A stretch of DNA of 64,000 nucleotides from Tetraselmis striata (taxonomy: Eukaryota; Chlorophyta; Chlorodendrophyceae; Chlorodendrales; Chlorodendraceae): positions 124,001 through 188,000 of the forward strand of contig VCJN01001948.1 in the NCBI GenBank assembly GCA_006384855.1, read 5' to 3'. Made by a program: the position numbers and the translations under genes. Below the pieces are notes generated by a model that saw nothing but the letters and a program-made list of their open reading frames with translations, ran no database searches and was not told the DNA's origin. This document shows, in pieces, positions 2,385 through 57,579 of this stretch. Each line of letters opens with the position of its first letter. Within the stretch, counting starts at the first letter, position 1.

Positions 2385-2795
2385 CTACCCGTTTGGGCGT
2401 CGGCCCATACGAGTAATGCGAGTTGGGGCAAGCCCCAACCCGCGGAGCAAAGCATTTCGGGAGTGCGATACATTATGTGCAACAAAGCACGCAATGATGT
2501 GAAGGAGGGCCCGACGCCTTAGCTGGAAAAGCTTCCCATTCCCAGTAAAATCCAGGGCGCCGTGAAGGGAGGGGGGGACCCCGCCCAAAATAAAGGCACT
2601 TAAGTCCTCGGGTGTTGACGCAGTCACCTGGCTACTAATAAAATCCATGAACTCCGGAACTAAAAACCCAAAATTATAACGGTGATACCCCCACCGCGGG
2701 CACTCCACCAACATATGTTCGATAGTCTCAGATTCACCTCCGCCACATACAGGGCAGTGTTCCAAGAACCGCTCAGGCATGGCATGAATCCGGGC
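2385..2795 (-). pseudogene. LINE reverse transcriptase C-terminal fragment (zf-RVT type)
   Basis: About 131 residues on the minus strand open with a zinc knuckle, CPVCGGGESE..H.LVECPRW (CX2C-X10-H-X4-C), the signature found after the RT domain of many non-LTR retrotransposons. The following ~90 residues are moderately hydrophobic and end in RxTRMGRRPNG. No RT motifs lie upstream: an in-frame stop sits a few codons before the first Met, so this is a 3' remnant of a dead copy. A second minus-strand LINE-like piece lies just upstream at 3.2-3.8 kb; whether both come from one insertion is unclear. Confidence 0.6.
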
Positions 2796-3940: not shown

Positions 3941-4274
3941 CTCTGCGTTATTCATGTACGATTAAGCGCGGGTAATTACACGATAGCCGAGTAGTAGATA
4001 TTAAAGGCAATATCATCTACTTTATATATGTAATTAATTTTCGAGACACTTGCGGATGATTGTTTTCATTGTGATTGCCGCGGAGCTGCCGGGCTGGATC
4101 GCTGGCCTCTGAGCGTGAGACTAACAAAGGGGCTTAAGCATTAATCCTTAGCGGGTTTAATCGCAGTAATCCTGGCTGGCAGACTGTGACACCCGCATGC
4201 TGGTCAATTTCATCAAGGCTGTGCAGTTGGGGCAAATATGTACGAAAGTACGAGAGATTATTTACAAGTATAAT

Positions 4275-4460
4275 GATCTAAACTAGTTTATGGGGTTTCC
4301 CTCCTTGCCCTAACCGCTTTTTAGCTACAAGTGCTGCTCAGTGGTACGGGAACTAGGCATCTGTTGTTGCGCCCTTTTTGGATGCAGCACGAGTAGACAT
4401 TAAAGCAGCCAGAACAACTGAGCCTGCCATCTTCCAGTTTTCGCTGCGTTCCACGCAGCG
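4275..4460 (+). repeat. Split direct repeat A1
   Basis: This 186-bp repeat starts gatctaaactagtttatggg and recurs as A2 at 7171-7356. It ends in a perfect hairpin: cgctgcgt, loop tcc, acgcagcg (4442-4460). Confidence 0.9.
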
Positions 4461-4540
4461 ATGTAAAAACTGTCTCGTAACCAGTTGCGAGCAAGGTCAC
4501 CCCAGGTTGTTCAAGACCACACCCGGCTCGCCATCCGAGT

Positions 4541-5428
4541 GTGATATTCTCGTCCGTACGTCCGTGCGTTACTATGTCAGATGGAGAAGAACCCGTCGCT
4601 GAGCCGACGCTCAAGTCGTTGCAAGCAGATGTGCGTGCATTGGCTACGGCTGTAGCTCAATTGACGGCTCTTGAGCGTGTTGTTGATGGAGAAGGGGCAC
4701 ATGGCTCTCGCTCCGGGCAGCGCATCGCGGGACAGCCGACAGGCAGCGGGGGAGCCGCAGAGCGCCCCGACTTGCTAGAGCTAGCCCAGAGCGGCCGTGT
4801 CGGAGCAAAATCCGTGAGTGCCGAGGATGACTACCTCGCGGTGCCAGAATTACTGCAGAGAGCAGAGTCTGGTTATGAGGCCGTTCGACCGGTCAGCCGA
4901 GTTCCTGGACTCTTTCCCTTGAGCACCGACCTAACGAACGAGTACCTCAAGCAGGATGACCGGCGCCTGCCGCCCCAGGAGGAGTATCTATGGATGTCGT
5001 GTTTCGGCGCCCACATGGCCGCACTTTTCGTGGCTCCCGACGAGCTGCTGCCCTACGTCCCTGCCACCAACCAGGACTTCACCCCCTACCTCGCGAGAGC
5101 TCGGAACCACGCCGAGGCCATCGACAAGGCGTTTCGGTTTCGTTTGGCCTTCCTGCGGAGGCTAAATGAGATCAAGCGTGTGCACGGTGACCAAGGTGTT
5201 TTGGATGTGCTGCGAGCCCAGCATTTTCAGCCTGCTTCGGAGCATCTGGGTTCCGCGATCTTTGGGGACCTCATGCGGGACTACGAGCGCCGTGTCTTCG
5301 AGGCGACCGTTGCCAGCAGCGCGACAGCAACCGCTACTGCTCGAGTGGTGGCTGCAGCTGCCGGTCGCGGGCGTGGGCGAGGACGTGGCGGTGGTCGTGG
5401 GCGTGGCCGCGAAGGTGAGCACGATTGA
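4541..5428 (+). CDS. ORF1 (gag-like) of the YR element
   Basis: Up to 295 codons; an internal Met shortly after the first (…VTMSDGEEP) is an equally likely start. The N-terminal ~60 residues look like a short coiled coil. A central segment includes HMAALFVAPDELLPYVPATN and a charged helical stretch. The C-terminus is a strong Arg/Gly box (repeated RGRG) typical of nucleic-acid binding. The central segment is shared with a diverged minus-strand copy near 35.7-36.0 kb. I infer a nucleic-acid-binding structural protein; no zinc knuckle or protease is visible. It ends just before the recombinase region. Confidence 0.7.
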   Translation: MIFSSVRPCVTMSDGEEPVAEPTLKSLQADVRALATAVAQLTALERVVDGEGAHGSRSGQRIAGQPTGSGGAAERPDLLELAQSGRVGAKSVSAEDDYLAVPELLQRAESGYEAVRPVSRVPGLFPLSTDLTNEYLKQDDRRLPPQEEYLWMSCFGAHMAALFVAPDELLPYVPATNQDFTPYLARARNHAEAIDKAFRFRLAFLRRLNEIKRVHGDQGVLDVLRAQHFQPASEHLGSAIFGDLMRDYERRVFEATVASSATATATARVVAAAAGRGRGRGRGGGRGRGREGEHD

Positions 5429-5464
5429 CGGTGTGGGGCGCCTTTCGTCGGAGCTGCTGGAGCT

Positions 5465-7087
5465 TTGCGAGGCCACCTTTCGGTGACCGCCGCAAGACGC
5501 ACCCTTGCAGCTCAACGGCGAGATGAGCGCCCCGTGTTAGGGCCTGACCCCCCCACTTTACAGACTTCCTTTAGACCTTCCTCGGTGTGGCGCTTCTCAC
5601 AGTTGCAGCCGAGTGCGGCTCAACCATCCGCACACATGCACATGGCGGCTCAACTAACCGCCTCCCGTACCATTCCACCACAGCGTCCGTCGGTTGTTAC
5701 ACTACGTGTTACAACTGGTTCGCAACGACCAAGTTTCGCGCGGGTACGTTACGCGCGAAAAAGGCGCTACGAGCGCGAAGGGCGCGCAGGGCGGCCCTCT
5801 TACCTGAACCTAGCCCCGCAAACCCGTACCGATGCTACTGCAAACCCGTCCAGCAGCTACCGGCCAACCGCCGGGAACCTAACTGCTGCTGCCGAGTACT
5901 TTGCGAACAGTAGTCGTACCGGTGGAACTCTGTCAGTAAAACGACGCACTTACGTAATTGACGAGCCCGAAGCTGTCGCTCCCTGGGCTGCTTCATTGCG
6001 AGCTCGGCTGCAGGACGCGTTCGGCTCAGACGAGCTGGGCCAGCGGACGCTCGACCTACTCTCCAGGTCCCTCAGCGCTCAGACACTCAAGAGCTATGCC
6101 GGCCGGCTGTCTCAGTTCGCGGAGTTCTGCCACGACTCCGAGAACATCAGCCCGCTGGAGGCGACTACTGCGACTGTCGTTCGGTACGTTGCCTGGATCG
6201 GCGAGCGGGGGCACATCGCCGCTAAGTCACTGCAACCTTACCTGTCTGCGATCAACACGTTCTTCGAGCTGCACAGCCTCGACCCAATCGCCAAGGACAG
6301 CCTGCACTTAACTTCAGCAAGGCGTGGGCTGATGCTGCGTCAGCGCCGACTGGACGCTGCCCCTTTGCGCGTCCCTCTGCCTGCGGATGTGGCTTACCGC
6401 TTCGTCACAAAGGCCGAGCTGATTGTGTCTGCTCCCTACCCAGAGTACCACCACAACTTCCGGGCCCTCCTGGCCTAGGTTGTCAACTTTATGTTCTTTG
6501 CCAGGGGCCTTACTGGCGTGTCCTGTCGAGTGCGAGACGTGCATGTCGACGACTACAACATCACCCTGCAAGTGTACCGCGAGAAGGGTCGCGCTGGCCG
6601 ACGGGGACCCGACGACCTGCACGTACTTCTCCTTCCGGTGTCCGAGCACCCTCGAGTGGCACGTCTCTTGCACCACTTCATCGACAACGTCCAATCTGTC
6701 CCCCTGGTTACTGTTGGCTTGGCTACATCAAACTTCTGGGCTGTCACTGCGGCCGAGCAGTCAAAACCTTGGACTGCGGCTACAATGTCAGACTGGATGT
6801 CTGCAGCCATCAGACTAGTCAACGCTGCCCCCCCTGCTGGCACTTCCTGGACTTCACAAAGTCTTCGCAAGGGCGCAGGTTCTGCAGCAAACGCCATCGG
6901 AGTGCCATTGTCCCACATTCGCTACCAAGGCGGTTGGGCCACTAACTCTGACGTCGTTCTGGACTACATCGACCCCAACGTTCTTCCTTCACCTGGCGCA
7001 TGGTTCTTCTTTGGACACATCGCCCCCCTCCGCCACTTCCAAGTCCAACAGGACTCCGCAGTGGTGGCCTTCCCAGTGCCTCCTTCA
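5465..7087 (+). pseudogene. Tyrosine recombinase of the YR element
   Basis: The region encodes an N-terminal SAM-like segment (QTLKSYAGRLSQFAEFC) and a catalytic domain. Recognisable catalytic-domain motifs are SLRKGAGSAA (the HxLR box with Ser for His), GGWATNSDVV (Trp in place of the second His) and the likely nucleophile Tyr in LDYIDP. This spacing matches phage-integrase-fold recombinases of DIRS-order elements, which insert circular DNA intermediates without target duplication. About one break is present. The nearest match in the window is the C-terminal part at 57.3-57.55 kb in the shorter sibling element. Confidence 0.75.
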
Positions 7088-7143
7088 TGACTTGGCGCTA
7101 CCTCTTCTCCGTCAATCCACCGCTCTCTCCGTTCGCTCAAGAC

Positions 7144-7170
7144 TGGCAAAACCAGACTCAACTTTGAAAT
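7144..7170 (+). repeat. Split direct repeat B1
   Basis: 27 bp starting tggcaaaaccagactcaa and ending aaat, directly abutting A2. B2 repeats it with one or two differences. Confidence 0.85.
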
Positions 7171-7356
7171 GATCTAAACTAGTTTATGGGGTTTCCCTCC
7201 TTGCCCTAACCGCTTTTTAGCTACAAGTGCTGCTCAGTGGTACGGGAACTAGGCATCTGTTGTTGCGCCCTTTTTGGGTGCAGCACGAGTAGAGATAAAA
7301 GCAGCCAGAACAGCTGAGCCTGCCATCTTCCAGTTTTCGCTGCGTTCCACGCAGCG
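7171..7356 (+). repeat. Split direct repeat A2
   Basis: 186 bp, about 97% identical to A1 by eye, including the terminal hairpin at 7338-7356. Confidence 0.9.
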
Positions 7357-7448
7357 CCCCCCGTGACTCCGTTTTCCCTCCACGCTTTCGCTAAACCATC
7401 CTGCCAATTTCGGCTCTTGACCGTGTAAAATAGCCTGCGCGACCTTTT

Positions 7449-7475
7449 TGGCAAAACCAGACTCAAGTTTGAAAT
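7449..7475 (+). repeat. Split direct repeat B2, right end of the YR element
   Basis: 27 bp starting tggcaaaaccagactcaa. It closes the split-repeat structure and marks the right boundary. Confidence 0.85.
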
Positions 7476-7477
7476 CA

Positions 7478-8114
7478 TCGATCTATTTCTACTGGTACAT
7501 CAGAAATAATTTCCTGCTGCCACAGCACGCAGGAGTCGTCCGCATAGCAGCAATAGCCGATATAGCAGGAGTCGCTATTGTACGATCCCCACGGCACTGT
7601 AGCGTGATCCCCATGGCGCGGCGGCACGAAAACTGTGGCGGTGTTCCATGCATGTGTTAATCCCACGGCCATTGGTGCCCGCTGCGCTACCCCCAATGTA
7701 GTAAGCAGTGTCGCCACATTTCATTTTTAATGTATCGGCGTCTTTTAGCGGGGGCATAATGTACACTTCAGCTCCGCTTCGACACACCATGCTATTTTGC
7801 GGCATTCTAGCGCAAACAGTTCTTGGTGGTGGGTGGCCAGGGGGAGGGGGGGGGGGGGCTGCTGAAATCAGATGAGACGCCAGATACCGCGATTATTTAT
7901 TGGAACAGTATATGGGTCGCCTTCTTCCACAATATGCTATATGTATCCGCGCGCCACTGAAGTGCCGCAGTACATACCGGTAATCGTCCATTGTTTCATT
8001 TTAATGTCAACCAGCATAGTCACTATGTACATATTGTGTAAAGAGCAATCTATGTCAGTGTCTATTGAACATGCACTGACCACCGCAAACAAGGCTACCG
8101 CGTCGCTCCCTGCT
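7478..8114. other. Intergenic, downstream of the RAP gene
   Basis: Holds a G tract near 7850-7858 and no convincing frame. It is probably the 3' UTR and flank of the minus-strand RAP gene. I found no TGTAA poly(A) motif in minus orientation here. Confidence 0.4.
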
Positions 8115-14257: not shown

Positions 14258-14700
14258 TTGTGCGGTTCATATGGATGTGTTTGTGCGACAGAAAGGAGAC
14301 AAACGTTGCACATTGTGCGTATGGTTGGACGACTTGCCCGACATAGTTGGTAGATAGGGGGGAGGGGAGGGCTCAAACCTCCCCACCACTACGTCTGCAT
14401 GTAATGTTGCCCGAAGCGGTTGCGCTGCATGACATATCATCACACAAAGTGTTGGCCCTTTTGTATTGTCACATTGTCGAAGCATGTTGATTGGCGAGTT
14501 TATGTGAGGCCCTGATGTTGTGAAGCCACGAAAGGTATGGCGCACGACCTTATGTGTACAAGCGTCGCCCCAAATTCGTTTGTACGGTTCATATGGAGGG
14601 GGGCGCGGAAATGGAGATGCATTGGCAACACTTTGCATATGGTGCGTATGGTTGGACGGCTAGCTACGACACAGTAGGTCGCGGCGGGGAACGCATAATT
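14258..14700. repeat. Imperfect direct repeat, period ~320-340 bp
   Basis: gtttgtgcggttcatatgga near 14258 and gtttgtacggttcatatgga near 14579 are followed at similar spacing by gtgcgtatggttggacg. The copies are partial. The second lies inside duplication unit 1. Confidence 0.5.
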
Positions 14701-15749
14701 AGATAGCTAGGGCACTACTGCTGCATGTACAGTATTGGTGTTCAAAGCATTACATTAAACATATGTGTGCGTGAAATCTGGGTGTGTTAGTTGCCCATGG
14801 GCGTCGCCGAGAGGCACGACACATCCCCATACCATATTATACCTTGTTGTGCACTCTTGACCCTCGTTAACTCCTAGTTATGATGCACCAGTACGGGTGG
14901 AGCCTTGGTATGTATATACCACCTTGCACATAGCGGGATGTGATGTGTTGGGTTGGGTGGATGGCGGACGCGACCTGCGACCTCGATGCATGACACCATA
15001 CATCCAGCATGCGACTATGCGTGTCCGCATTGGATTTCCCTCGCTCAGTGGTGTGGCGGCGATTTTTATCTGTCATGCAACACTGGTTGGCTGGATGAAG
15101 CTACATGCTTCTCGTGCTGCATGCCCGCCACTCACACATACGGATGCTTGCGTGTGTATATACAACGCTCCAACATCGACTCATACGTACCGACAAAAGC
15201 ACATACTACCATACCACCGCCGTAGTCGTGTCGCCAAGGCCTCGCCCCCGCCACACGTGACTGCCGTAACACCTGCGTCATCGCCGCGCGACGCGTATCA
15301 TGCTGAATCATCCCTCCAAGCGCCCGGCCGCCGAACTACCCCTGGAGTAGCACACCCACCCACAGGAGAACTACCCCCGGAGTAACATGATCCCAAAATA
15401 TATTCGCTAGTGCTTAAAAAAAAGTCGCTAGTAGATAAAGCTAGTACTCAACGTTTTTATGCAGGAACTCCTTACATCAACATCTGCAGCGCGCTAAGAA
15501 CTAAACTCGTGTGAATAATGAAAAGGCTAGTAACAAATCAACCGCTAAAGGCAGTACTAACTATCAACACAGCAAGCCGCCTAAAAGCGGCCCACAACCC
15601 GCACGAGGCTGGATGGATGAGTGATGCGCGCACGGTTCAGAGTCCGGGCCACGCGTGCACGTGTGTGCGAGGGTGATCTAGAAATGCCGTCATCTCCTTT
15701 TGCGAGCCCGACGTGGCCTCCGCCTCATGTTTTAGGGTTACGTGCTCCA
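14382..15749. other. Unit 1 flank, no gene recognised
   Basis: An open plus frame at 14897-15385 (162 codons) and minus frames give no domain signal. The dispersed hairpin repeat lies at about 15565-15606, and the sequence ggagtagcaca...ggagtaacatg occurs as an imperfect duplication near 15343-15390. The whole stretch recurs at 21236-22602. Confidence 0.45.
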
Positions 15750-17179
15750 TCACGCGGGCATCCGCATCGCTGAGGTGGCCAGCAATAGCAGCCGCCTAAA
15801 GGCGGCCCCACGCCTCGCGCACTGCCGCGACATAGCTGCCCGACCCACGAGCATCGTTGAGGAAGTGATCATATCGGTTGGCGAAAGAAGTTGCGTTGAA
15901 GCTGCCTCGACCAAGTACGGACTCACGCTGTACGTAAAGAAACGAGGGCTGGGGGTGTTGGTGTCGGAGTTCCTAATAGTGAGGAACCTCGGGAGGATGT
16001 CGTTTATGCAGCCGGTGAAGGCGGCATCATGAACGGTAGCCATGCGCGTGGGGTGGCGAAGCCTGATGCGCGCCCTGGCCACTGCATTCTCGCTTAAAGT
16101 AGCCGCCTCCGTTAGTTGCTGTGGGGTTTGTGTCGTGCAAAAGCTCCGCCAATAAATCGGCGACCACCGGATTGGCGTCGGTGCCGTACGTGGAGGGATC
16201 AAAATAGACCCCTAGTTTCCGCGCTTGACCGTCGTGAGGACGGTGGCTTCCACCTCGGACGGTAGGCAATTGCGGAGCCAATCCCCCGCCACGTGTTGCA
16301 AGCAATGCTTGAGCCGCATTGCCCATGCATGGCGGGATGCAGGGCGTGGGTGTACCGACGGGCGACGGCTGGGCTTCGCAGATAGGAGCTTGCTCATGCT
16401 GACGTCCACATCCTCTCGTAGCTCCTCCGCCTTGCCGCGCATGTAGTAGGCATGCACATACCTTGACGATCCAAGCGGCAGCACGTAGTTGAGAACCGGG
16501 ATGCCGTAGTGGCCATCCGGCTCGGGCCACTTGATGTCAGCCGGGGCTTCACGCCGCGCGGCCTCCATTTCCGCGTTACTGTACGCGTGCATCTTGTCGA
16601 AGCGCACCTCAAGCCCCACGGACGCCTTAATGGACGTGCGGAATAAAGAGTGAAGGGCCGGCGAAGCGTACTCTGGCAGGCCCACCATCTATCCTTCGTC
16701 GGCGTTGAAGCACGCCGCCCTGCCTGTGGTCTCCAGCGTGTAGCCGCACTCCTCCATCTCGGGGTAAATCGCGACGCATCAAGATGTCGTGGCCAACGGC
16801 GGGCCCTGTTGCACGCCGTCCTTCGACCGTAGAGTGGCGGACCGGTCGTCCACGAGCACAAACGAATTCGTGGAGAGAAAGGCCAGGGACGCAACGATGA
16901 CGGGGTGGAGAGGAGAGCAATCGATGAGGCGTTGATAGTGCGGCGCCAAGCCTCGTTGTATGGGTTGCGAAGGTCAGTGTGGGCGATGACGGTACGGCGC
17001 CCGGGCCAAGCTATCGGCGATTAGTCGGACACTGTGGATTAGCACGGAGTCCCATGCGGAGATGCCGACGAAGAGTTGAGACGGCGCAAGCACCTATATA
17101 TACGCCTCCTTCATGTTGTCCACCACTGAGTGCCCGCTCCGTTGCGGCATGCCGAACGTCCGGGGCCCCGCCCTCGCCT
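15750..17179 (-). pseudogene. LINE reverse transcriptase relic, unit 1
   Basis: Read from 17179 downward, the minus strand encodes non-LTR RT segments: MPQRSGHSVVDNMKEAY, GISAWDSVLIHSVRLIADSL, DLRNPYNEAWRRTI, KDGVQQGPP, then MVGLPEYASPALHSLFRTSI, GLEVRFDKMHAYSN, and further down RIRLRHPTRM and FTGCINDILPRFLTI. This order matches RT and thumb regions of LINE proteins of green algae. An in-frame TAG follows KEAYI, and several frameshifts separate the segments, so the copy is dead. The copia LTR at 17180 abuts the RT frame, showing that copia inserted into this LINE. An almost identical relic lies in unit 2. Confidence 0.75.
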
Positions 17180-17523
17180 TGTTGGAGAACGTGCTCTGGC
17201 TATGGCACAGGTTGCCCCAATGCTTATCTGCTAATGCGAGGATGGACATGGCGCGCGCGATGCATGCAAGACCGATGCGAAGACTTAGTACATTAGTGTC
17301 TTTGTATTACAGTCAGCAATAGTATGAGCACGCGCGCAGCAGCTAGTTGCGCCATGCCGCCCCCGCGCGCACTTGCGTGCCTAGTGCGGCTTGCCTGCTG
17401 CTCGCCCCTTCGGGGTTGTGTAGCCGCTTCTTTTGTCTCACCAGCTTGCCGCCTTGCTGCATCTCACTGCACCTCGCTCCGGGCGAGCTCTGCACAGCCA
17501 TGCCTTCGGGGCTGCGCTGATTA
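17180..17523 (+). repeat. Copia 5' LTR, unit 1
   Basis: 344 bp, starting tgttggag and ending ctgcgctgatta. It appears identical to the LTR at 24033-24376. Confidence 0.85.
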
Positions 17524-20500
17524 GGTTTCGGGCCCTCACACGTCTGAACGTGTGCAGACTTAGGTAGTCGACCTCGCTCCGGGCGCGTATCCTCGACCTC
17601 CAGAGGCCGAGCGAGGCTTCAGGAGTCCCGCACAATCATCGGCGTCCGGGGCCAAACGGAGCTTTTGGAGCCCCGAACAGTCACCTATCGATAGAATAGC
17701 ATTATGTTTTTTAGATTTTCAGTATTTTGGTGCAAAACATCTTTCGAAGATGACCGAGCGTTGAAGCGTTATCACTGGCGTTGGGAGACATACCGCCGCC
17801 CATCACACACGACAGTTGGAGACCAAGCCACCGAGTTCACCTTGGGTTACCGCCAGCCTTGGGACAGCCTCTCGCAACTGCGGGGGCTTCGCGCAGAGAG
17901 GAGCGGGAGCGCGTGCGCGACGCAGCGGTAGAGTGCATTTACATGGACCGGAGCCGGAGACGGAGGCGTGCATACGCGGCGCGGCGGAAGCGTGCACTCA
18001 CATGTACCGGAGCCGGAGGCAGGGGCGGACCGACAGCGGGAAATTCAGCCCAACGCCAGCGACGGCGTTACCTTGTGGACCCTGGACCCGGACTCTCAAC
18101 CATGCATGGTGGACTCTGGATCCGGAACCGATGATAAGGGGCCTCCTCCTGGATTCGGCACTCCGAGAGGTTCCGAGCACGAGATGCGGACGCAGCTTAC
18201 ACAACTGGAGCAACGCCAAGAGCATCAGTACTCCGAGCTTCACGAGTTGGCGATGTATCTAAATCAGCAGCAACAGGACATGCAACAAATGTTGGCATCA
18301 GTCCTCAAGCAACCACCGCCACCCCCCACGGCCGTGGCGCCGCCCGAACGACGGTCCGACATAGGCAATTATCTCGGCGGGCCGCAGGCGGAAGCGTACC
18401 GCTCTCCGGCAGCTCGTCGTCAAACGATCAGTGCGGCTAGCCTAGCGGATGGGAAGTCTTGGCAGAGAGGCATGACCCGCGGACTGGACCAGATATCTCG
18501 TACTGTAAAACTTGACCCCCCGAATCAATTGTAATTGGACGATTGTAATTGGACGATTACCGGTGCGGGGGTTACCTGTACAACCTATTGGTGCAAATGA
18601 CGCTGGGACACACCGAGGCATGGTCATAGCTACGACTGCGGAAAGACTCAACCGCGACCAACCGTGGCGCTGTGGCATGGGCCAACCTCTGTCATCGTCT
18701 CGACAGGCAGGACATGCACTACACGATGAACCTCTTGAACGAGGTGATGCGACCTCTTGACGGATCCAAGGAGACACTCATCAAGTGGCTCGACACCAAG
18801 TGGGCGGCGGTGACCGCGTACGACACGGCCATGATGGCTGCTTACGACCGACTCCGCGATTCGATGATCATCCAAGCTGTGCTAAAGAACATACCATCTC
18901 CGGGCCGGTACAACACCATCAAGACCATTGTGGCCTCCGCTCTCGATCTACGCCGGTGCGGCGCCGCAGCGGTGCTCGCTGAGCTACGACACCACGCGTG
19001 TCTTGACGGCGGCACGGAGAGTCCTGCCCCATGTATCGCACCACCGGCGATGCACGGCGCTGGGGCATTCTTCACGGGTCCTACCGGCGGCAAGGAGAAG
19101 TATCGTGGCAAGTTCCGCAAGTCCCTGTTCTTTGGCAGCTGCGCCGCGTGCGGCGAGAAACACATGACCAGCCAGTGCACCGCAAGCGACTCCGCGATGG
19201 TGGCGTTTCAACGCACCAAAATCAAGACACTGAAATTCAAGTACCCCGGCGACGCGAAAGCCGAGAGAAAACCGGCAGTCGGAGCAGCTATGGCAACACT
19301 GCCGGAAGAACCCATCGACGATGATGCTGAATCGTCTAGCGGCGACCTGACCCCCGAGGAGGAGGAGAAAGTTCTCTGCGGGGCAGAGCCACCCACACTC
19401 CGAACTGCCTTCATATGTCGGCGTGCATAGCGGCGCAGGGTGTGGGGTACGCATGGGTGATGGATTCAGCGTGTGCGCCCGAGAACGTTAAGGCCTAGCA
19501 GTCCGATTTTGAAACGTTTCGTCACGAGACAAATCGTGGCAAACTCGGAGGAGTGAGCACTCTCATCGAAGGCAGCGGCATGGCTCGCTTCCGGGTACCT
19601 TTACTGGCCGGAGGCACATGCATGTTATGCGTGCCAGCGGTTTACTGCCCCTCGCTTATTGACACCAATGCAATGGGAGTGGGAAGACTGTTGAGCCAAT
19701 CTTGGTTACAACAACATGAACCATGTGCCATCACTTACCCCAACCAAGCTGACTATGGCACTATCACCCTTGCGGCAGGAGTGGTGCGCCTAGGAGGCTG
19801 CTCCGGACTCTACATGTTGGACCCGGTCTCGGCGGACGGAGCTACCCCGCATCATGTGGAGCGGACATCCCATGTCGTCATGATGACGCAAGCTGTTAAG
19901 GATGATGCCATTCTGTGGCACAAACGACTAGGCCATCCGGGCATGGGCACGGTACAGGCGCAACATGATAATGGCGTGCCAGCCGTACCTGCGTTTCTGG
20001 CGGCTGTAAGGAACATCCATTATTGTCACTCATGCCTCCAGAACAAAGCAACATCCGCAGCAGCGAGTCGTCAAGCAGTGGACTTACCGGACAAATGCTG
20101 CAGCCACCTGTCCGTTGATGTCCTTGGCCCCATTCACATCACATCCCCTGGTGGGTTCAGATGGACCATTAGCGTTATTTGCCATCTCTCTCGCTTTCAA
20201 TGGCATAGACATCTGCGCACAAAAGAGGCTGATGAGGTTCTACCCGCTATGCGATCACTGCTCAATGAGGTCAGACATTATTACCTGAAATATTGGGCGG
20301 AGGCAGATAGCCCGTTTGCTCCGGTCATCAGGTTTGACAAAGACTCCATCTTCGAGACCGCCGCCATGGATGACCTGGTCGGCGGCATGGGGGCAGAAAT
20401 GAGTGGACCGCACCATATCATCATCACCAGCATGGCAAGATTGAACGGCCATGGCGCACCATCAGAGACGGCGCCACCAGCATGATGGCTGACATGTCGG

Positions 20501-21233
20501 TGCCCAGAAAGTACTGGACGACCGCCATCAGCACGAGTCTTTGGCTCAAAAACAGACGATATGTTCTAGCTGCGGGCAACACGGATCGGCGAGAAGCACC
20601 GTTAACAGTCCTGACCAAAGGCAACATTGATCCTCACATTGAAAAAACCAGGGTCTGTGGATGCAAGGTATTTGTCAAAGTGCCCGATGGCACTCGGAAG
20701 AAGCTGGACTGCAAGGCATGGAGCGGAGTCTTTATGGGGTACCCCGGCAACTCACCTGGCTGGTTGGTACTCAATCCCGTCACAGGAAGGATCACAGTCA
20801 GTGTCCACGTACGATTCATCGAGACTGAGAGCGGCTTTGATCGCAACCCAACACGCGAGGACTGCTCCATTATCCTTGAAGCACCTGAGGGACAGTACGC
20901 AGCCGAGGTTGAGTATGAGTCAGACATCGCACCTCAGGACATGGATGAGGGTGGGCACATCATGACACCGGATGCACCGAACATGCCGCACTCCGAGTTC
21001 GCCCCATATCGACCGCCCACCAGAATTAGACGGCAGCCTGTCTGAGCGCTTCAGTGCGCGGATGGCCAACGACATCGGCTTGGACACCACACCCACGGAT
21101 TATAGGCCGGTGGACTATGCCAGCTACCCCCCGCCTGACCCATGGATGGACCAGCCGATGGCCCTACTGACGGCATCAGGGATTCCCACCCCTCGCAACT
21201 ACAAGGAAGCGATGAACCCACCTTTCTGCGACC
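17180..21233 (+). mobile_element. Ty1/copia element, upstream copy, cut by the duplication junction
   Basis: Begins with a 344-bp 5' LTR (17180-17523), then a gag-like region (about 17.97-19.43 kb) and integrase-side regions (about 19.55-21.04 kb). It stops where the duplicated flank restarts, so RT, RNase H and the 3' LTR are missing. The element is broken, with several breaks besides the truncation. It is nearly identical to the element in unit 2, from which it differs mainly in two patches. Confidence 0.8.
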
Positions 21234-22602
21234 TCCCCACCACTACGTCTGCATGTAATGTTGCCCGAAGCGGTTGCGCTGATGACATATCATCACACAA
21301 AGTGTTGGCCCTTTTGTATTGTCACATTGTCGAAGCATGTTGATTGGCGAGTTTATGTGAGGCCCTGATGTTGTGAAGCCACGAAAGGTATGGCGCACGA
21401 CCTTATGTGTACAAGCGTCGCCCCAAATTCGTTTGTACGGTTCATATGGAGGGGGGCGCGGAAATGGAGATGCATTGGCAACACTTTGCATATGGTGCGT
21501 ATGGTTGGACGGCTAGCTACGACACAGTAGGTCGCGGCGGGGAACGCATAATTAGATAGCTAGGGCACTACTGCTGCATGTACAGTATTGGTGTTCAAAG
21601 CATTACATTAAACATATGTGTGCGTGAAATCTGGGTGTGTTAGTTGCCCATGGGCGTCGCCGAGAGGCACGACACATCCCCATACCATATTATACCTTGT
21701 TGTGCACTCTTGACCCTCGTTAACTCCTAGTTATGATGCACCAGTACGGGTGGAGCCTTGGTATGTATATACCACCTTGCACATAGCGGGATGTGATGTG
21801 TTGGGTTGGGTGGATGGCGGACGCGACCTGCGACCTCGATGCATGACACCATACATCCAGCATGCGACTATGCGTGTCCGCATTGGATTTCCCTCGCTCA
21901 GTGGTGTGGCGGCGATTTTTATCTGTCATGCAACACTGGTTGGCTGGATGAAGCTACATGCTTCTCGTGCTGCATGCCCGCCACTCACACATACGGATGC
22001 TTGCGTGTGTATATACAACGCTCCAACATCGACTCATACGTACCGACAAAAGCACATACTACCATACCACCGCCGTAGTCGTGTCGCCAAGGCCTCGCCC
22101 CCGCCACACGTGACTGCCGTAACACCTGCGTCATCGCCGCGCGACGCGTATCATGCTGAATCATCCCTCCAAGCGCCCGGCCGCCGAACTACCCCTGGAG
22201 TAGCACACCCACCCACAGGAGAACTACCCCCGGAGTAACATGATCCCAAAATATATTCGCTAGTGCTTAAAAAAAAGTCGCTAGTAGATAAAGCTAGTAC
22301 TCAACGTTTTTATGCAGGAACTCCTTACATCAACATCTGCAGCGCGCTAAGAACTAAACTCGTGTGAATAATGAAAAGGCTAGTAACAAATCAACCGCTA
22401 AAGGCAGTACTAACTATCAACACAGCAAGCCGCCTAAAAGCGGCCCACAACCCGCACGAGGCTGGATGGATGAGTGATGCGCGCACGGTTCAGAGTCCGG
22501 GCCACGCGTGCACGTGTGTGCGAGGGTGATCTAGAAATGCCGTCATCTCCTTTTGCGAGCCCGACGTGGCCTCCGCCTCATGTTTTAGGGTTACGTGCTC
22601 CA

Positions 22603-24032
22603 TCACGCGGGCATCCGCATCGCTGAGGTGGCCAGCAATAGCAGCCGCCTAAAGGCGGCCCCACGCCTCGCGCACTGCCGCGACATAGCTGCCCGACCCA
22701 CGAGCATCGTTGAGGAAGTGATCATATCGGTTGGCGAAAGAAGTTGCGTTGAAGCTGCCTCGACCAAGTACGGACTCACGCTGTACGTAAAGAAACGAGG
22801 GCTGGGGGTGTTGGTGTCGGAGTTCCTAATAGTGAGGAACCTCGGGAGGATGTCGTTTATGCAGCCGGTGAAGGCGGCATCATGAACGGTAGCCATGCGC
22901 GTGGGGTGGCGAAGCCTGATGCGCGCCCTGGCCACTGCATTCTCGCTTAAAGTAGCCGCCTCCGTTAGTTGCTGTGGGGTTTGTGTCGTGCAAAAGCTCC
23001 GCCAATAAATCGGCGACCACCGGATTGGCGTCGGTGCCGTACGTGGAGGGATCAAAATAGACCCCTAGTTTCCGCGCTTGACCGTCGTGAGGACGGTGGC
23101 TTCCACCTCGGACGGTAGGCAATTGCGGAGCCAATCCCCCGCCACGTGTTGCAAGCAATGCTTGAGCCGCATTGCCCATGCATGGCGGGATGCAGGGCGT
23201 GGGTGTACCGACGGGCGACGGCTGGGCTTCGCAGATAGGAGCTTGCTCATGCTGACGTCCACATCCTCTCGTAGCTCCTCCGCCTTGCCGCGCATGTAGT
23301 AGGCATGCACATACCTTGACGATCCAAGCGGCAGCACGTAGTTGAGAACCGGGATGCCGTAGTGGCCATCCGGCTCGGGCCACTTGATGTCAGCCGGGGC
23401 TTCACGCCGCGCGGCCTCCATTTCCGCGTTACTGTACGCGTGCATCTTGTCGAAGCGCACCTCAAGCCCCACGGACGCCTTAATGGACGTGCGGAATAAA
23501 GAGTGAAGGGCCGGCGAAGCGTACTCTGGCAGGCCCACCATCTATCCTTCGTCGGCGTTGAAGCACGCCGCCCTGCCTGTGGTCTCCAGCGTGTAGCCGC
23601 ACTCCTCCATCTCGGGGTAAATCGCGACGCATCAAGATGTCGTGGCCAACGGCGGGCCCTGTTGCACGCCGTCCTTCGACCGTAGAGTGGCGGACCGGTC
23701 GTCCACGAGCACAAACGAATTCGTGGAGAGAAAGGCCAGGGACGCAACGATGACGGGGTGGAGAGGAGAGCAATCGATGAGGCGTTGATAGTGCGGCGCC
23801 AAACCTCGTTGTATGGGTTGCGAAGGTCAGTGTGGGCGATGACGGTACGGCGCCCGGGCCAAGCTATCGGCGATTAGTCGGACACTGTGGATTAGCACGG
23901 AGTCCCATGCGGAGATGCCGACGAAGAGTTGAGACGGCGCAAGCACCTATATATACGCCTCCTTCATGTTGTCCACCACTGAGTGCCCGCTCCGTTGCGG
24001 CATGCCGAACGTCCGGGGCCCCGCCCTCGCCT
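22603..24032 (-). pseudogene. LINE reverse transcriptase relic, unit 2
   Basis: Copy of the 15750-17179 relic with the same motifs and the same disabling changes; one base difference was noticed, near 23807. It is bounded at 24033 by the copia LTR. Confidence 0.75.
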
Positions 24033-24376
24033 TGTTGGAGAACGTGCTCTGGCTATGGCACAGGTTGCCCCAATGCTTATCTGCTAATGCGAGGATGGAC
24101 ATGGCGCGCGCGATGCATGCAAGACCGATGCGAAGACTTAGTACATTAGTGTCTTTGTATTACAGTCAGCAATAGTATGAGCACGCGCGCAGCAGCTAGT
24201 TGCGCCATGCCGCCCCCGCGCGCACTTGCGTGCCTAGTGCGGCTTGCCTGCTGCTCGCCCCTTCGGGGTTGTGTAGCCGCTTCTTTTGTCTCACCAGCTT
24301 GCCGCCTTGCTGCATCTCACTGCACCTCGCTCCGGGCGAGCTCTGCACAGCCATGCCTTCGGGGCTGCGCTGATTA
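24033..24376 (+). repeat. Copia 5' LTR, unit 2
   Basis: 344 bp with termini tgttggag...ctgatta. Confidence 0.88.
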
Positions 24377-24820
24377 GGTTTCGGGCCCTCACACGTCTGA
24401 ACGTGTGCAGACTTAGGTAGTCGACCTCGCTCCGGGCGCGTATCCTCGACCTCCAGAGGCCGAGCGAGGCTTCAGGAGTCCCGCACAATCATCGGCGTCC
24501 GGGGCCAAACGGAGCTTTTGGAGCCCCGAACAGTCACCTATCGATAGAATAGCATTATGTTTTTTAGATTTTCAGTATTTTGGTGCAAAACATCTTTCGA
24601 AGATGACCGAGCGTTGAAGCGTTATCACTGGCGTTGGGAGACATACCGCCGCCCATCACACACGACAGTTGGAGACCAAGCCACCGAGTTCACCTTGGGT
24701 TACCGCCAGCCTTGGGACAGCCTCTCGCAACTGCGGGGGCTTCGCGCAGAGAGGAGCGGGAGCGCGTGCGCGACGCAGCGGTAGAGTGCATTTACATGGA
24801 CCGGAGCCGGAGACGGAGGC

Positions 24821-26368
24821 GTGCATACGCGGCGCGGCGGAAGCGTGCACTCACATGTACCGGAGCCGGAGGCAGGGGCGGACCGACAGCGGGAAATTCA
24901 GCCCAACGCCAGCGACGGCGTTACCTTGTGGACCCTGGACCCGGACTCTCAACCATGCATGGTGGACTCTGGATCCGGAACCGATGATAAGGGGCCTCCT
25001 CCTGGATTCGGCACTCCGAGAGGTTCCGAGCACGAGATGCGGACGCAGCTCACACAGCTGGAGCAACGCCAAGAGCATCAGTACTCCGAGCTGCACGAGT
25101 TGGCGATGTATCTCAGTCAGCAGCAACAGGACATGCAACAGATGTTGGCATCAGTACTCAAGCAACCACCGACACCCCCCACGACCGTGGCGCCGCCCGA
25201 ACGACGGTCCGACAGAGGCAGTTATCTCGGCGGGCCGCAGGCGGAAGCGTACCGCCCTCCAACAGCTCGTCGTCACACGATCAGTGCGGCTAGCCTAGCG
25301 GATGGGAAGTCTTGGCAGAAAGGCATGACCCGCGGACTGGACCAGATATCTCGTACTGTAAAACTTGATCCCCCGAAACTGACTCTACCCATGGGATTCG
25401 CCGAGTGGGAAGAGGCATTCGTGTCAGTCGCCACTCTCATGATTCCCGAGGTACTGGCTCAAATGGTCATGGGGGCTGATGATCCCGAGATCAACCCAGC
25501 ACTCCAGGGGTACTTGTACAACCTATTGGTGCAAATGACGCTAGGACACACCGAGGCACGGTCAGAGCTCCGACTGTTGAAAGACTCCACCGCGACCAAC
25601 CGTGGCGCTGTGGCATGGGCCAACCTCTGTCATCGTCTCGACAGGCAGGACATGCACTACACGATGAACCTCTTGAACGAGGTGATGCGACCTCTTGACG
25701 GATCCAAGGAGACACTCATCAAGTGGCTCGACACCAAGTGGGCGGCGGTGACCGCGTACGACACGGCCATGATGGCTGCTTACGACCGACTCCGCGATTC
25801 GATGATCATCCAAGCTGTGCTAAAGAACATACCATCTCCGGGCCGGTACAACACCATCAAGACCATTGTGGCCTCCGCTCTCGATCTACGCCGGTGCGGC
25901 GCCGCAGCGGTGCTCGCTGAGCTACGACACCACGCGTGTCTTGACGGCGGCACGGAGAGTCCTGCCCCATGTATCGCACCACCGGCGATGCACGGCGCTG
26001 GGGCATTCTTCACGGGTCCTACCGGCGGCAAGGAGAAGTATCGTGGCAAGTTCCGCAAGTCCCTGTTCTTTGGCAGCTGCGCCGCGTGCGGCGAGAAACA
26101 CATGACCAGCCAGTGCACCGCAAGCGACTCCGCGATGGTGGCGTTTCAACGCACCAAAATCAAGACACTGAAATTCAAGTACCCCGGCGACGCGAAAGCC
26201 GAGAGAAAACCGGCAGTCGGAGCAGCTATGGCAACACTGCCGGAAGAACCCATCGACGATGATGCTGAATCGTCTAGCGGCGACCTGACCCCCGAGGAGG
26301 AGGAGAAAGTTCTCTGCGGGGCAGAGCCACCCACACTCCGAACTGCCTTCATATGTCGGCGTGCATAG
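24821..26368 (+). pseudogene. Copia gag region
   Basis: Encodes a gag-like polyprotein segment: a Gln-rich coiled-coil N-part, a UBN2-like central helical region (FAEWEEAFVSV, WANLCHRLDRQDMHYTMN, LIKWLDTKWAAVTAYDTAM) and a CX2CX3HX4C zinc knuckle near the C-end. It belongs to the broken copia element. Confidence 0.75.
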
Positions 26369-29300
26369 CGGCGCAGGGTGTGGGGTACGCATGGGTGATG
26401 GATTCAGCGTGTGCGCCCGAGAACGTTAAGGCCTAGCAGTCCGATTTTGAAACGTTTCGTCACGAGACAAATCGTGGCAAACTCGGAGGAGTGAGCACTC
26501 TCATCGAAGGCAGCGGCATGGCTCGCTTCCGGGTACCTTTACTGGCCGGAGGCACATGCATGTTATGCGTGCCAGCGGTTTACTGCCCCTCGCTTATTGA
26601 CACCAATGCAATGGGAGTGGGAAGACTGTTGAGCCAATCTTGGTTACAACAACATGAACCATGTGCCATCACTTACCCCAACCAAGCTGACTATGGCACT
26701 ATCACCCTTGCGGCAGGAGTGGTGCGCCTAGGAGGCTGCTCCGGACTCTACATGTTGGACCCGGTCTCGGCGGACGGAGCTACCCCGCATCATGTGGAGC
26801 GGACATCCCATGTCGTCATGATGACGCAAGCTGTTAAGGATGATGCCATTCTGTGGCACAAACGACTAGGCCATCCGGGCATGGGCACGGTACAGGCGCA
26901 ACATGATAATGGCGTGCCAGCCGTACCTGCGTTTCTGGCGGCTGTAAGGAACATCCATTATTGTCACTCATGCCTCCAGAACAAAGCAACATCCGCAGCA
27001 GCGAGTCGTCAAGCAGTGGACTTACCGGACAAATGCTGCAGCCACCTGTCCGTTGATGTCCTTGGCCCCATTCACATCACATCCCCTGGTGGGTTCAGAT
27101 GGACCATTAGCGTTATTTGCCATCTCTCTCGCTTTCAATGGCATAGACATCTGCGCACAAAAGAGGCTGATGAGGTTCTACCCGCTATGCGATCACTGCT
27201 CAATGAGGTCAGACATTATTACCTGAAATATTGGGCGGAGGCAGATAGCCCGTTTGCTCCGGTCATCAGGTTTGACAAAGACTCCATCTTCGAGACCGCC
27301 GCCATGGATGACCTGGTCGGCGGCATGGGGGCAGAAATGAGTGGACCGCACCATATCATCATCACCAGCATGGCAAGATTGAACGGCCATGGCGCACCAT
27401 CAGAGACGGCGCCACCAGCATGATGGCTGACATGTCGGTGCCCAGAAAGTACTGGACAACCGCCATCCTCACGAGTCTCAGGCTGAAAAACAGACGATAT
27501 GTTCTGGCTGCGGGCAACACGGATCGGCGAGAAGCACCGTTAACAGTCCTGACCAAAGGCAACATTGATCCTCACATTGAGAAAACCAGGGTCTATGGAT
27601 GCAAGGTATTTGTCAAAGTGCCCGATGGCACTCGCAAGAAGCTGGACTGCAAGGCATGGAGCGGAGTCTTTATGGGGTACCCCGGCAACTCACCTGGCTG
27701 GTTGGTACTCAATCCCGTCACAGGAAGGATCACAGTCAGTGTCCACGTACGATTCATCGAGACTGAGAGCGGCTTTGATCGCAACCCAACACGCGAGGAC
27801 TGCTCCATTATCCTTGAAGCACCTGAGGGACAGTACGCAGCCGAGGTTGAGTATGAGTCAGACATCGCACCTCAGGACATGGATGAGGGTGGGCACATCA
27901 TGACACCGGATGCACCGAACATGCCGCACTCCGAGTTCGCCCCATATCGACCGCCCACCAGAATTAGACGGCAGCCTGTCTGAGCGCTTCAGTGCGCGGA
28001 TGGCCAACGACATCGGCTTGGACACCACACCCACGGATTATAGGCCGGTGGACTATGCCAGCTACCCCCGCCTGACCCATGGATGGACCAGCCGATGGCC
28101 CTACTGACGGCATCAGGGATTCCCACCCCTCGCAACTACAAGGAAGCGATGAACCCACCTTTCTGCGACCTCAGGGCACCATCTATTTAGGTGGAGTGGG
28201 AGGGATTGGTGGGCAATCACACCTGGGATCTGATTCCGCGCCCGCCACCCGGTGAAGGCACAGTCCTACCCAACAAGTGGGTATTCACAGCGAAGGCACA
28301 TGTCGATGGATCACTGGACAAAGCCAAATCCCGGGCAGTGGTCTGTGACGATTTCCAGAAGGATGGCCTGCGGACAGACATTCGGACCTGTGATTCCATG
28401 GATGTGGGACAGACATTCGGACCTGTGATTCGCATCTCTAGCCTCCGAGTGTTTTACACTATCGTGGCGGCCATGCAACTCTACCTCCGCCATCTTGATG
28501 TGGTCGCAGCCTATCTCACCGCGGAGATCCCTGCAGGGGAAAACGTATTCATGGAACAATTGGAAGGATTAAATGATGGATCTGGCAGAGTCTGCCAGTT
28601 ACGCAAGTGCCTCTATGGACTACGGCAATCATGCAGATACTGGTACCGGATGCTCATCAAGTGGCTCAAAAGCATGGACTGGGTGCAGTGCGAGGCGGTA
28701 CTCTGGCACCACAACGTGAGTCAAAGGCTCAAGCACTATGGCAGCACCACAGCCAGTAATGATTGGCTAGATACGTTCCAGCGGGTCCTCTATGCTGAGT
28801 TCAAAGTCAAGGCGGGACAGCCATGGGTTGTCGGCATGTCGATCGATTATGACAGACCACGTCGCCAGGTTACCCTCACGCAGACAACCTACATTCAGGA
28901 TATCCTGGGCCGGTTTGGCATGCTGGACTGCAAGGCATGCAACGTTCCCATGGTACCGGACTTCTGTAAGCAGAAGCCCGCGATTGTGACAGCCTCACCT
29001 CTACTGGATGCTTTGGAGCGCTCCCAATATGTACAACTGATGAGATGCCTGCTGTATGTTAGTACCTGCACCATGCCGGACATCACCACCCCACTCGGCA
29101 TCTTGGGCAGTGTGCAGAAGGAGCCCCGTGTGATACACATGACAGCCCTAAAGAAGGTACTGCGGTATCTGAAGGGTACCATACATCGTGGCATTTGGGC
29201 GCTGACTCACCTGACAAACGGCAACTCGTTGGCTATGCGGACTCCAACTTCGCTGCCGACATGTTCCAACGCCGGTCTCGCGGCGGCTACATCTTCCACC

Positions 29301-29787
29301 TCGGCGACCATGGCGCCTGCAGTTACAAGTCTACATTAATTAATGCCCACCGCCAACAAGGAACCAGGTGGCGGCATTGCACAATCGACAGTCGAAGCTG
29401 AAACGGTAGCTCTGGCGAACGCCATCAAGGACGGCATCCACCTTAAGACCCTCGTCTCCGAAATTCTCGGCCGTGCCGTGCCACTATTAATATGGGAAGA
29501 CAACCATGGCGCGATCATCTATGCTCACAATGCCGTAATCAGCGAACGCACGAAGCATATCGACGTGAAGTGGCATTTGGTCAAAGACCATACTGAAGCC
29601 GGCACCGTCAGGGTGGAATTTATTCCGACTGACCTCACCACGGCAGACATGCTCACCAAGCCCTTAGCTCGACCACTGCTCGAGAAGCACGCGCGTACCG
29701 CGATGGGCTGGTAGTAAGCAGATCACACTCCCGACATTTGCGATGCCAACCGGGTTCCTATCCCATGGAGCCCCGGTGTACCATCCG

Positions 29788-33847: not shown

Positions 33848-35080
33848 GGACATCTCTGAGCAAGAGAGTCTTCACGTGCGTTGCCACCTCAATAGAGTTG
33901 TATTCAGTGCATGCAAAATCACTTGCATGGAATCTCCAAATCCCCCCCCCCCCCCCCCCCCCCCCCCGGACATGCTTCATATGCTCAGTCTGGCGTGCAG
34001 CCTGGCAGGAAAAATGGCTGCACATTCACGTGAACAAGAAGCTCTATCTTCAGTTACGAAGCTCTATTTTCAGTGATGTAGACCTGTTAGATATAGTGGC
34101 CCCGTCTATAATACCAACATGCAGGGAGCGGCACACTTTGAAGCATCCGCAGCCTTGCAAACTCTGTGCCTCGTCCCTTGGCACGCGCACCAGGCATCAT
34201 CGCTCGCGGGGTGGCCCTTGCCTGATGCTGACGTATAGTCTGACTGGCCAGTGCATCAGTGGCCAGTGCATCGGGGTGCACAACACTGTCCATGCCACCT
34301 GTAAGTTCGAAACACACTAGTCAAAGATTCTCCCACCGCTAGGTTCACAGGCAGCAGACGGCTGAGGTCGGCGCATTTAGAGAACGCTGAGAGCCGTAGA
34401 TGCTGAGATATACCGGAACAAGTAACACGCGAATGGATTATGTACAGCCAACTACTCAAACATATGTTGCTATGGCCCGCAAGGTCAACGTGGCTATTGG
34501 TATGCAATTATATATTCAAGCGGTTCTGATGTGCCACCACGATGACAGCGGTTGTGCCTTCCTCGACCTAAGGCCATTCCATTATTGCTCTTTCCGGACA
34601 TGTAATCGAATCAGTCGGCAGGCTTTGACATGTTCTCTTTGCTAATGGCACATGCAGCCCTGGGCCCATGTTGAGAGGCGGTGGGTCAATGCCATCCAAG
34701 TAGTTTATGCGCACAATGTAGTGTCCTTTTCTTATTAGCAGATAAAGTACTTTTGAAGAATAGCCACTACGCGTCTGAAATCCCGGCATACAAGCAGCGG
34801 CATATATTGCAGCAGACTAGCCCTGACATTGAAACTGGTTACAACATTTTTATTACATGAGCTAGCAGCAGAAGGCGATATCGGAAATCACCAAAATAAA
34901 AGGCAATCAGAAAGGTCCTCTACATCGACATGGTTACAACATGCTAGTCTGCTGCTCTCCTCCGATCGGACTGAGTTGTTCTTACTGAGGGCCTGGTATC
35001 TCCAATCTTACTTATGTTATTACAGATTCTCCATGTAGTCCGTCAGTTATCTCTAATCTCCGTGGAAAACAATCAGTGTA
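33848..35080. other. 3' flank, no gene recognised
   Basis: Holds a C tract (about 33944-33967), the second copy of the 27-bp dispersed sequence (34853-34879) and a 12-bp inverted pair, gcagcagactag (about 34809) / ctagtctgctgc (about 34945), enclosing about 125 bp. No convincing protein frame. Confidence 0.4.
34300..34304 (+). terminator. Possible TGTAA poly(A) signal of the BART-START gene
   Basis: First TGTAA noticed downstream of the stop, about 450 nt away. TGTAA is the usual volvocalean poly(A) element; the distance is long but possible. Confidence 0.35.
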
Positions 35081-35639: not shown

Positions 35640-36737
35640 CTGCGGCCTGAGCGTTTCAGCGGCGCTCTCCGTAAGCGCGCACGCTTGTGCGCAAGTTCGA
35701 TTCTCGCAATGGGCAGATTTCCTCGTATTTGTCGCCAAACAGAACAGAGCCTAAATGTTCCGCTGCGGCTGAAAATGATGAGCCCGTAGCACGTCCAACA
35801 CCCCATACTGGTAACCGTACACACGCTTGATCTCGTCGAGTCTCCGCATGGAGGCTGGATGAAAACGATACGACTTGTCGATTGGTTAAGTCTTGATTAG
35901 CAACTGGAACGAAGGGTAGTAGCAGATGGTCGGGAGCCACGAAGAGAGCGGCCATGTGACATAGCCCCAATAAACCACGTCATCCAAATGTACTCCTCAT
36001 GATGGGCCGGCAGGTGCCGGTCATTCTGCTTGAGGTAGTAGTTCGATAGGTCGGTTGGCAAAGGGAAAATTCCATGCACTCGGCTGACCGGCCGAACGCA
36101 TTCATACGTCCTCGTAACAAGGCTCTGCTTTTTGTTGTAGCTCTGGCACCGCGAGGTAGTCGTCCTCGGCACTCGCGGATTTTGCTCCGACACGGCTGCT
36201 CTGGGTTGCCTCTAGCAAGTCGGGGTGCGCTGCGGCTCCTCCGCTGCTTGTCGTCTAACCTGCGACGTGCTGCCCGGATCCGGAGCCATGTGCTCCGTCT
36301 CCATCGACACCACGCCCACAAGCCGCAAGTTGGGCCAAGGACGATGTGCGCTCTAGCAGCAACGTAGACTGCATGGGCATTCATGTCTGCTTCTTGAAGA
36401 GATTCCATTGTCGGCTCGGTGACGGGATCTTCCCCATTTGGCATTGTGAGATACGGACGTAAGGATGAGAATTACACACACGGAATGTGAGCCGAGTGAT
36501 GTGGTCTTGAATCAACATGTAACCTTGTCCGCAACATGTTACGGGACAGTTCAGCGCTGCGTGTAACAGATGGAATATGGCGGGCTCGACTGTTGCGGCT
36601 ACGTACTGCTTTATGTACTTGTGCTGCACACAAACGGGCACAACGGCGGGTGAACTAGCAACTCGTACGACTTAGCATCACATGTAGCCGGACGAAAAGT
36701 GGTTAGAAAAGGAGGAAACCCCATACAAACTAGTTTA
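35640..36737 (-). mobile_element. Truncated relative of the split-repeat YR element
   Basis: Read on the minus strand from about 36737: an A1-like repeat (aaactagtttgtatggggtt, then a gcccgtt/gcagcacaagta region and gagcccgccatattcc), followed by an ORF1-like region with HMAALFVAPD, LLPFVPVANQD and AAEHLGSVLFGD. All are diverged versions of the 4275-7477 element. No recombinase or right-hand repeats remain. It is broken, with many breaks, and clearly older than the 4.3-kb copy. Confidence 0.7.
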
Positions 36738-36928
36738 TCGTTGTTAAGTATTAACTAAGGTTAGAAAACGACAACCGAGTGATGCCCCAATCCTATAGCG
36801 GTGCCAGCCCTAGTCGGCCGTGTGCAATTGGCGCCACGATGCTCCGGAAATTTCCGGAATCTTCCTGCGCAGATTCGTACATCGGCCGCCGGCATTCCCG
36901 GCACCGGAGGGTTGGTGGCAGCAGCTCT
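36738..36928. repeat. Direct repeat R, left copy
   Basis: About 190 bp starting tgttaagtattaact and ending ggtggcagcagctc. It recurs at about 37891-38081 with roughly seven differences. Confidence 0.85.

Positions 36929-56308: not shown

Positions 56309-56360
<52 letters not shown>
56235..56360. repeat. (TATATG)n-type microsatellite
   Basis: Imperfect tatatg/tgtatg repeats of about 125 bp, directly abutting the left end of the YR element at 56361. Confidence 0.9.
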
Positions 56361-57552: not shown

Positions 57553-57579
57553 TGGCAAATCGTGCCTCCTTGGGTAAAT
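57553..57579 (+). repeat. Split direct repeat B1 of the short YR element
   Basis: 27 bp, starting tggcaaatcgtgcctcct and abutting A2. Confidence 0.85.

Follow-up and report, generated by a model that had tools for sequence, protein, structure and literature searches.

A reverse transcriptase-less PAT-like element of Tetraselmis striata that keeps a gag-like gene and a tyrosine recombinase, putatively joined by stop codon readthrough

The window analysed here is a 64,000-nucleotide stretch of the genome of the green alga Tetraselmis striata (assembly GCA_006384855.1, contig VCJN01001948.1, positions 124,001 to 188,000), and it carries an element with split direct repeats, in the order A1 (186 bp), open reading frame 1 (ORF1), tyrosine recombinase, B1 (27 bp), A2, a 92-bp tail and B2, which encodes no reverse transcriptase (RT). 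From comparison of its genomic copies, we consider that the element probably represents an RT-less, semi-autonomous lineage of PAT-like elements (DIRS order), which would obtain its RT in trans and would produce its recombinase as an ORF1-recombinase fusion by readthrough of a UGA codon.

Results

The element is an abundant family in which no RT was found

A preliminary description of the window had proposed an A1...B1-A2...B2 geometry of the PAT/TOC type (186-bp A, 27-bp B), and the direct-repeat coordinates bear this out, with the pair 4272-4460 and 7168-7356 being 98% identical and the pair 7144-7174 and 7449-7479 being 94% identical. Its further statement, that an Arg/Gly-tailed ORF1 and a tyrosine recombinase are present without RT, agrees with the reading frames and with a Pfam scan of the window copy, where the recombinase frame matched Phage_int_SAM_1 (E 1e-8) and gave a weak match to Phage_integrase (E 0.1), while no RT family was matched in any of the three frames scanned. 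The recombinase of this copy is damaged, both by an in-frame stop codon (Table 1) and by a Gln replacing the His of HxxR. The palindrome TAAACTAGTTTA at the start of A1 is a possible recombinase site, and the TGTAA in the tail between A2 and B2 is possibly a poly(A) signal.

The element had also been taken to be a family, as is evident from 1,927 exact occurrences of the 20-mer at the start of A (A-start; zero for the reversed control) and 907 exact occurrences of the 17-mer at the ORF1/recombinase junction in the assembly. Some 900-960 copies of 3.2 kb would correspond to 1.3-1.4% of the assembly, which is an upper value given the partial copies. A Phage_integrase search of the genome returned 146 matches, and 25 of the 30 loci fetched belong to this family (the best match, L039, falls outside it, together with L040-L042 and L066).

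RT-RNase H in most family members, which would make the window copy a simple deletion product, was not found, and the family is RT-less as far as it was examined. Among the matches listed for the 224-Mb assembly, 39 were long (2.8-3.2 kb, 93-100% identity), and none of them has an RT-sized insert since the genomic length equals the query length within tens of bases; the listing leans to young copies because the best-scored matches are shown. The order of parts was the same in 28 of 30 A-repeat loci, as far as each reaches. The remaining two are shortened at the 5' side, L011 starting at window-equivalent 7074 (97 bp before A2) and L016 at ~6223 (mid-recombinase), and no RT match was found in the sequence obtained upstream of either. 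The spacing and linkage tests drew on 100 of the 1,927 A-starts, 100 of the 907 junctions, 100 of 145 junctions of one RT-bearing type and 100 of 426 A-starts of the RT-bearing L070 type. For the first 100 A-starts of the element, 42 same-strand neighbour spacings were obtained, comprising 28 at 2.8-3.1 kb, three at 2.0-2.75 kb and 11 at 8.8 kb or more, with none of the 42 between 3.1 and 8.8 kb. The same measure applied to the L070 A-start, of which there are 426 exact copies, served as a positive control: 20 of its 44 listed spacings fell at 4.5-4.7 kb.

The RT proteins of two RT-bearing families, L069 and L070, matched nothing within the element in any of eight full copies; at one locus (L004) an L070-type RT sits in the downstream flank, outside the element. 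Diverged relatives, at 68-79% nucleotide identity, have ORF1 joined to the recombinase without RT where the alignment crosses the junction (it covers element positions 14-2596 in L075 and 3-1244, ~90 nt past the stop, in L127, and lacks the end of ORF1 in L071). A genome search with RVT_1 was saturated, its 150 listed matches all scoring 134-140 bits and probably representing one long terminal repeat (LTR) type. Outside the alga, IMG/VR held no pattern match to the element, and none of 77 pattern matches in GTDB contigs was confirmed as a relative.

ORF1 and the recombinase are under purifying selection

Both ORF1 and the recombinase are under purifying selection, with a ratio of non-synonymous to synonymous polymorphism (pN/pS), pooled over 60 loci, of 0.18 in ORF1 and of 0.25 and 0.24 in two recombinase stretches, against 1.2-1.9 in the other frames (pairs uncorrected for relatedness and dead copies included; alignment pieces kept from 78% identity upwards, and L009, L010 and L035 removed as duplicates). 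Both frames are open in four of the eight full copies fetched. Recombinase residues R359, H477, R480 and Y513, which we take to be the R, HxxR and Y residues of the enzyme, are invariant in seven aligned sequences, two RT-bearing families included. ORF1 had no Pfam match above the cut-off, and its BLAST match to the gag frame of L070 is weak (27% over 225 columns, E 0.004, in a one-sequence database without composition correction). The AlphaFold models were too poor to use (mean pLDDT, the predicted local distance difference test score, 39.0 for ORF1 and 39.4 for the recombinase).

The junction between the two genes resembles a readthrough signal in its layout

ORF1 and the recombinase lie in one frame across UGA-CGG, and TGACGG stands at the ORF1 stop in 39 of 43 distinct loci (45 alignment rows, 41 with TGACGG, in which L009 and L010 duplicate L001 and L002). 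The 141-nt stretch around the UGA folds with a minimum free energy of -66.4 kcal/mol (z -4.23, none of 200 shuffles as good), and 98.2% of the cells in the consensus stem are paired, with no double changes. The stretch past the UGA is under coding constraint: up to the first in-frame AUG, frame 0 has a pN/pS of 0.40 (bootstrap 0.29-0.54), compared with 1.29 and 0.92 for the two alternative frames, and stops number six in 2,707 codons in frame 0 against 59 and 93 in the others. The motif UGACGGUGUG is also found at the gag stop of the RT-bearing L070 and L074, where by inspection RT lies in the +1 frame. The layout resembles that of type II readthrough, which in the accessible text of PMC3542737 consists of UGA followed by CGG or CUA and an extended stem-loop ~8 nt 3', and we infer that the recombinase is made as an ORF1-recombinase fusion. 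The in-frame junction with its stem-loop and the signature of selection both go beyond what the preliminary description had noted.

The two A repeats vary in concert and insertion is precise

Across 35 copies, A1 and A2 within a copy differ at a mean of 1.94 positions, against ~8.0 for repeats from different copies, a contrast that 10,000 permutations never reached, and among 22 variable columns (minor count of at least 4) there were 12 with no discordant copy and six with one or two. The 35 copies comprised eight long-match loci, 24 chosen from the long-match list with partial copies omitted, and three others, a set that leans to young copies. Such concert is what template-dependent renewal of A during RNA-templated replication predicts.

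The base preceding A1 is T in all 35 copies, and B2 ends in T in 19 and in C in 15 of the 34 copies where its end is readable (C744 having no readable B2); this final base is perhaps contributed by the target. Paralogous empty sites were found for two of the eight copies tried, L002 (counterparts at window 34852-34909 and in L070) and L003 (window 2507-2795, 89% identity over 297 columns), and both indicate precise insertion without target duplication. In L003 the empty site agrees with the C that closes B2 but not with the T preceding A1, which at this one site may place the crossover immediately to the left of that base.

RT-bearing PAT-like families share the genome

PAT-like families with both RT and recombinase are present in the same genome, but carry other A and B sequences. 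L069 has 28-bp B repeats 365 bp apart and a match to RVT_1 (E 5.7e-8); RNase H, which is presumed to be present, was not detected in it by Pfam. L070 and L072 have A1, B1, A2 and B2 within a total of 4,854 bp, and L073 is assigned to this family from its termini; L071, L074 and L126 have B repeats of 31-34 bp spaced 307-308 bp. With the L069 RT as a query, at least 125 matches were found in the genome at 55-100% identity. By inspection, a terminal plan is shared, whereby B runs from GGCAA or GCAAAC to AAAT or TAAT and is followed, at the start of A, by G(G/A)TC, then a short palindrome, then G(A/G)GGTTT. UGUAA starts 17-25 nt before B2 in six tails compared (that of the window element included) and in L126. 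Among the L070-type A-starts, 11 of 44 listed spacings fell at 1.5-1.6 kb, and this 1.56-kb class suggests a separate short subfamily alongside the 4.6-kb copies.

Other features of the window and the assembly

The features are collected in Table 1. Three relatives of the element had been reported within the 64 kb, whereas we found two, and the second of these belongs to a different split-repeat family: its A-start, a detail added here, is the same as that of L070, whose family has RT-bearing members. Elsewhere, 14377-21235 and 21231-28172 form a near-perfect (>99%) repeat of ~6.8 kb, and a frame at 28191-29339 looks to us like a Copia-like RT. Direct repeats of 200 bp (36728-36927 and 37879-38079, 96% identical) surround ~950 bp and abut the broken copy of the element; they flank something other than the RT-less element and could belong to a short terminal-repeat element. 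By inspection, L040-L042 and L066 carry frames of bacterial appearance within a eukaryotic assembly, and these contigs perhaps derive from a non-axenic culture.

Table 1 Features of the RT-less element and of related elements, in window coordinates
Feature	Position	Strand	Remarks
A1 repeat	4275-4460	+	begins GATC, then palindrome TAAACTAGTTTA at 4279-4290
ORF1, 284 aa	4574-5425	+	Arg/Gly-rich C-terminus; gag-like by position only
ORF1 stop UGA, then CGG	5426-5431	+	recombinase continues in the same frame
Extended RNA stem-loop	5437-5531	+	consensus stem from 8 nt past the UGA; 6 nt in single-sequence fold
Tyrosine recombinase frame	5429-7087	+	553 aa in intact copies; TAG at 6476-6478 breaks the window copy
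B1 repeat	7144-7170	+	
A2 repeat	7171-7356	+	98% identical to A1
A2-B2 tail	7357-7448	+	TGTAA at 7424-7428
B2 repeat	7449-7475	+	final base T or C
Broken, truncated relative	35731-36737	-	A1 and part of ORF1; 70% nucleotide identity
Second split-repeat family, internally deleted	56354-57879	+	A at 56354-56534 and 57574-57754

Discussion

In the cycle that we propose, transcripts would initiate within A1 and terminate at the UGUAA shortly upstream of B2, and the RNA would be copied by RT from RT-bearing PAT-like relatives. The internal B1-A2 junction would then be the template from which the outer ends lacking from A1 and B2 are rebuilt and a circle is closed, and the element's own recombinase, as a readthrough fusion with ORF1, would recombine the B-A junction of that circle with a chromosomal site. 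The preliminary description had set a borrowed RT beside movement by recombinase alone. We favour the former, because A1 and A2 vary in concert, UGUAA precedes B2 and RT-bearing PAT-like relatives are present in the genome.

Several observations weigh against this account. At four of the 22 variable columns (68, 99, 156 and 172) the agreement of A1 with A2 is at or near chance expectation, and gene conversion could be another route to homogeneous repeats. At the junction, the diverged L127 has UGA-CGC at the stop, and neither the pairing of the stem (137 of 500 column shuffles) nor its covariation (90 of 500) rises above shuffling, in a test that took 33 of the 40 consensus pairs and omitted the outer ones. 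The corresponding fold in L074 does not reach significance (z -1.27, 25 of 200 shuffles; L070 z -2.70), and constraint past the UGA could result from non-AUG initiation. A poly-C run after the stem (window 5545-5558) varies from ~5 to 20 bases across 43 loci, shifting the frame in many copies (L071, which is too short, and the duplicates L009 and L010 were left out of this alignment, which also served for the splice donor). No RT donor with the same A and B was found among the three terminus types of RT-bearing families sampled. The linkage test speaks for a family without RT, as a listed RT match lay in the 3 kb downstream of none of 100 listed RT-less junctions, compared with 17 of 100 listed RT-type junctions, but it is weak alone because only five of the 100 RT-less junctions are on contigs with a listed RT match. 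It used 123 of the 125 listed matches, leaving out two fragments of places already listed, and the listing itself gives the top-ranking of 2,976 initial candidates. Finally, neither RNA nor cDNA nor a circle of the element was observed.

Among the alternatives, we regard it as unlikely that the element is an ordinary deletion derivative of a single RT-bearing family with the same ends. Such forms do occur here, as the L070 type with its 4.6-kb and 1.56-kb spacings illustrates, and the UGACGGUGUG motif and the A/B plan held in common with RT-bearing families suggest common descent; yet the element's recombinase shares 37-39% identity with the L069 and L070 enzymes, which at 40% are hardly closer to one another, the diverged relatives L075, L127 and L071 (68-79% nucleotide identity) also lack RT where the junction is spanned, and both ORF1 and the recombinase are under selection. 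It seems more doubtful still that the lineage is RT-free altogether, a circular DNA moved by its recombinase alone that gains copies through host replication. The homogenised A1 and A2 would not be expected if both repeats were copied as DNA, and a DNA circle with two like B-A sites would probably tend to resolve into circles of 2.9 and 0.3 kb, yet B1-A2...B2 is kept; the UGUAA just before B2 and the strong constraint on ORF1 also speak against it. That RT is seen in no copy examined, that the recombinase is conserved and selected, that insertion resembles recombinase integration of a B-A circle, and that an RT partner with the same ends was not found among the families sampled are all in its favour. 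A bolder version, in which a long-lived lineage has abandoned RT entirely, strikes us as very improbable: the roughly thousand copies would have arisen via recombinase-made circles packaged by ORF1, gag-recombinase readthrough would have replaced gag-pol, and A1 and A2 would be alike through B-A recombination in the circle.

Equally slight, in our estimation, is the chance that splicing rather than readthrough joins ORF1 to the recombinase. The sequence AAG/GTGAGC just before the UGA does resemble a 5' splice site, and GGTGAGC is present in 39 of 43 aligned loci (counted by eye). Frame-0 coding constraint continues past the UGA, however, L127 has no GT yet retains UGAC, the RT-bearing families hold UGACGGUGUG without that donor, and an intron would be lost from a spliced RNA template.

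Among retrotransposons, derivatives without RT usually decay or turn non-coding. TOC1 and TOC2 of Chlamydomonas are non-autonomous, RT-less split-repeat elements, and the TR-GAG elements of plants are LTR retrotransposons with gag only, dependent on RT in trans. Like TR-GAG, the element keeps a gag-like gene and is proposed to take RT from elsewhere; unlike TR-GAG, it keeps its integrating enzyme and belongs to the DIRS order. We know of no split repeats in Cryptons, with which the element shares a recombinase without RT and a presumed circular intermediate. Its split repeats and gag-like ORF1 set it outside the definition of Cryptons, which the accessible text of PMC4157794 describes as tyrosine-recombinase DNA elements with a recombinase domain only. 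The VIPER-derived SIRE, a non-autonomous and RT-less user of split repeats, is short and consists of terminal parts only in the available portion of PMC6681497, whereas the element here keeps two selected genes, its own recombinase among them. With PAT-like elements, TOC and Kangaroo, as far as the consulted parts of PMC4157794 and PMC3266345 describe them, it has in common the A1...B1-A2...B2 repeats, the tyrosine recombinase, the gag-like first ORF and the absence of target duplication; it differs in having no RT in the copies examined and in the adjacency of ORF1 and recombinase in one frame across UGA-CGG. Because RT was looked for and is absent, the element is not a full member of the PAT-like retrotransposons as defined, although in its repeats and integration it works like one. 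The UGA-CGG with an extended stem-loop ~8 nt downstream recalls the type II signals of RNA viruses in the accessible text of PMC3542737, with the difference that it lies in a cellular retroelement and that a recombinase, not a polymerase or a coat extension, follows. In the parts of the open-access literature consulted we found no report of an RT-less lineage with gag and recombinase, nor of readthrough in the DIRS order.

In this genome, then, a gag-like gene and a recombinase gene are still selected with RT gone, and the junction of the element is commoner than that of one RT-bearing type (907 versus 145 exact matches). The element thereby offers a test case for which functions of the DIRS order are needed in cis, for the supply of RT in trans between PAT-like families, and for the use of readthrough.

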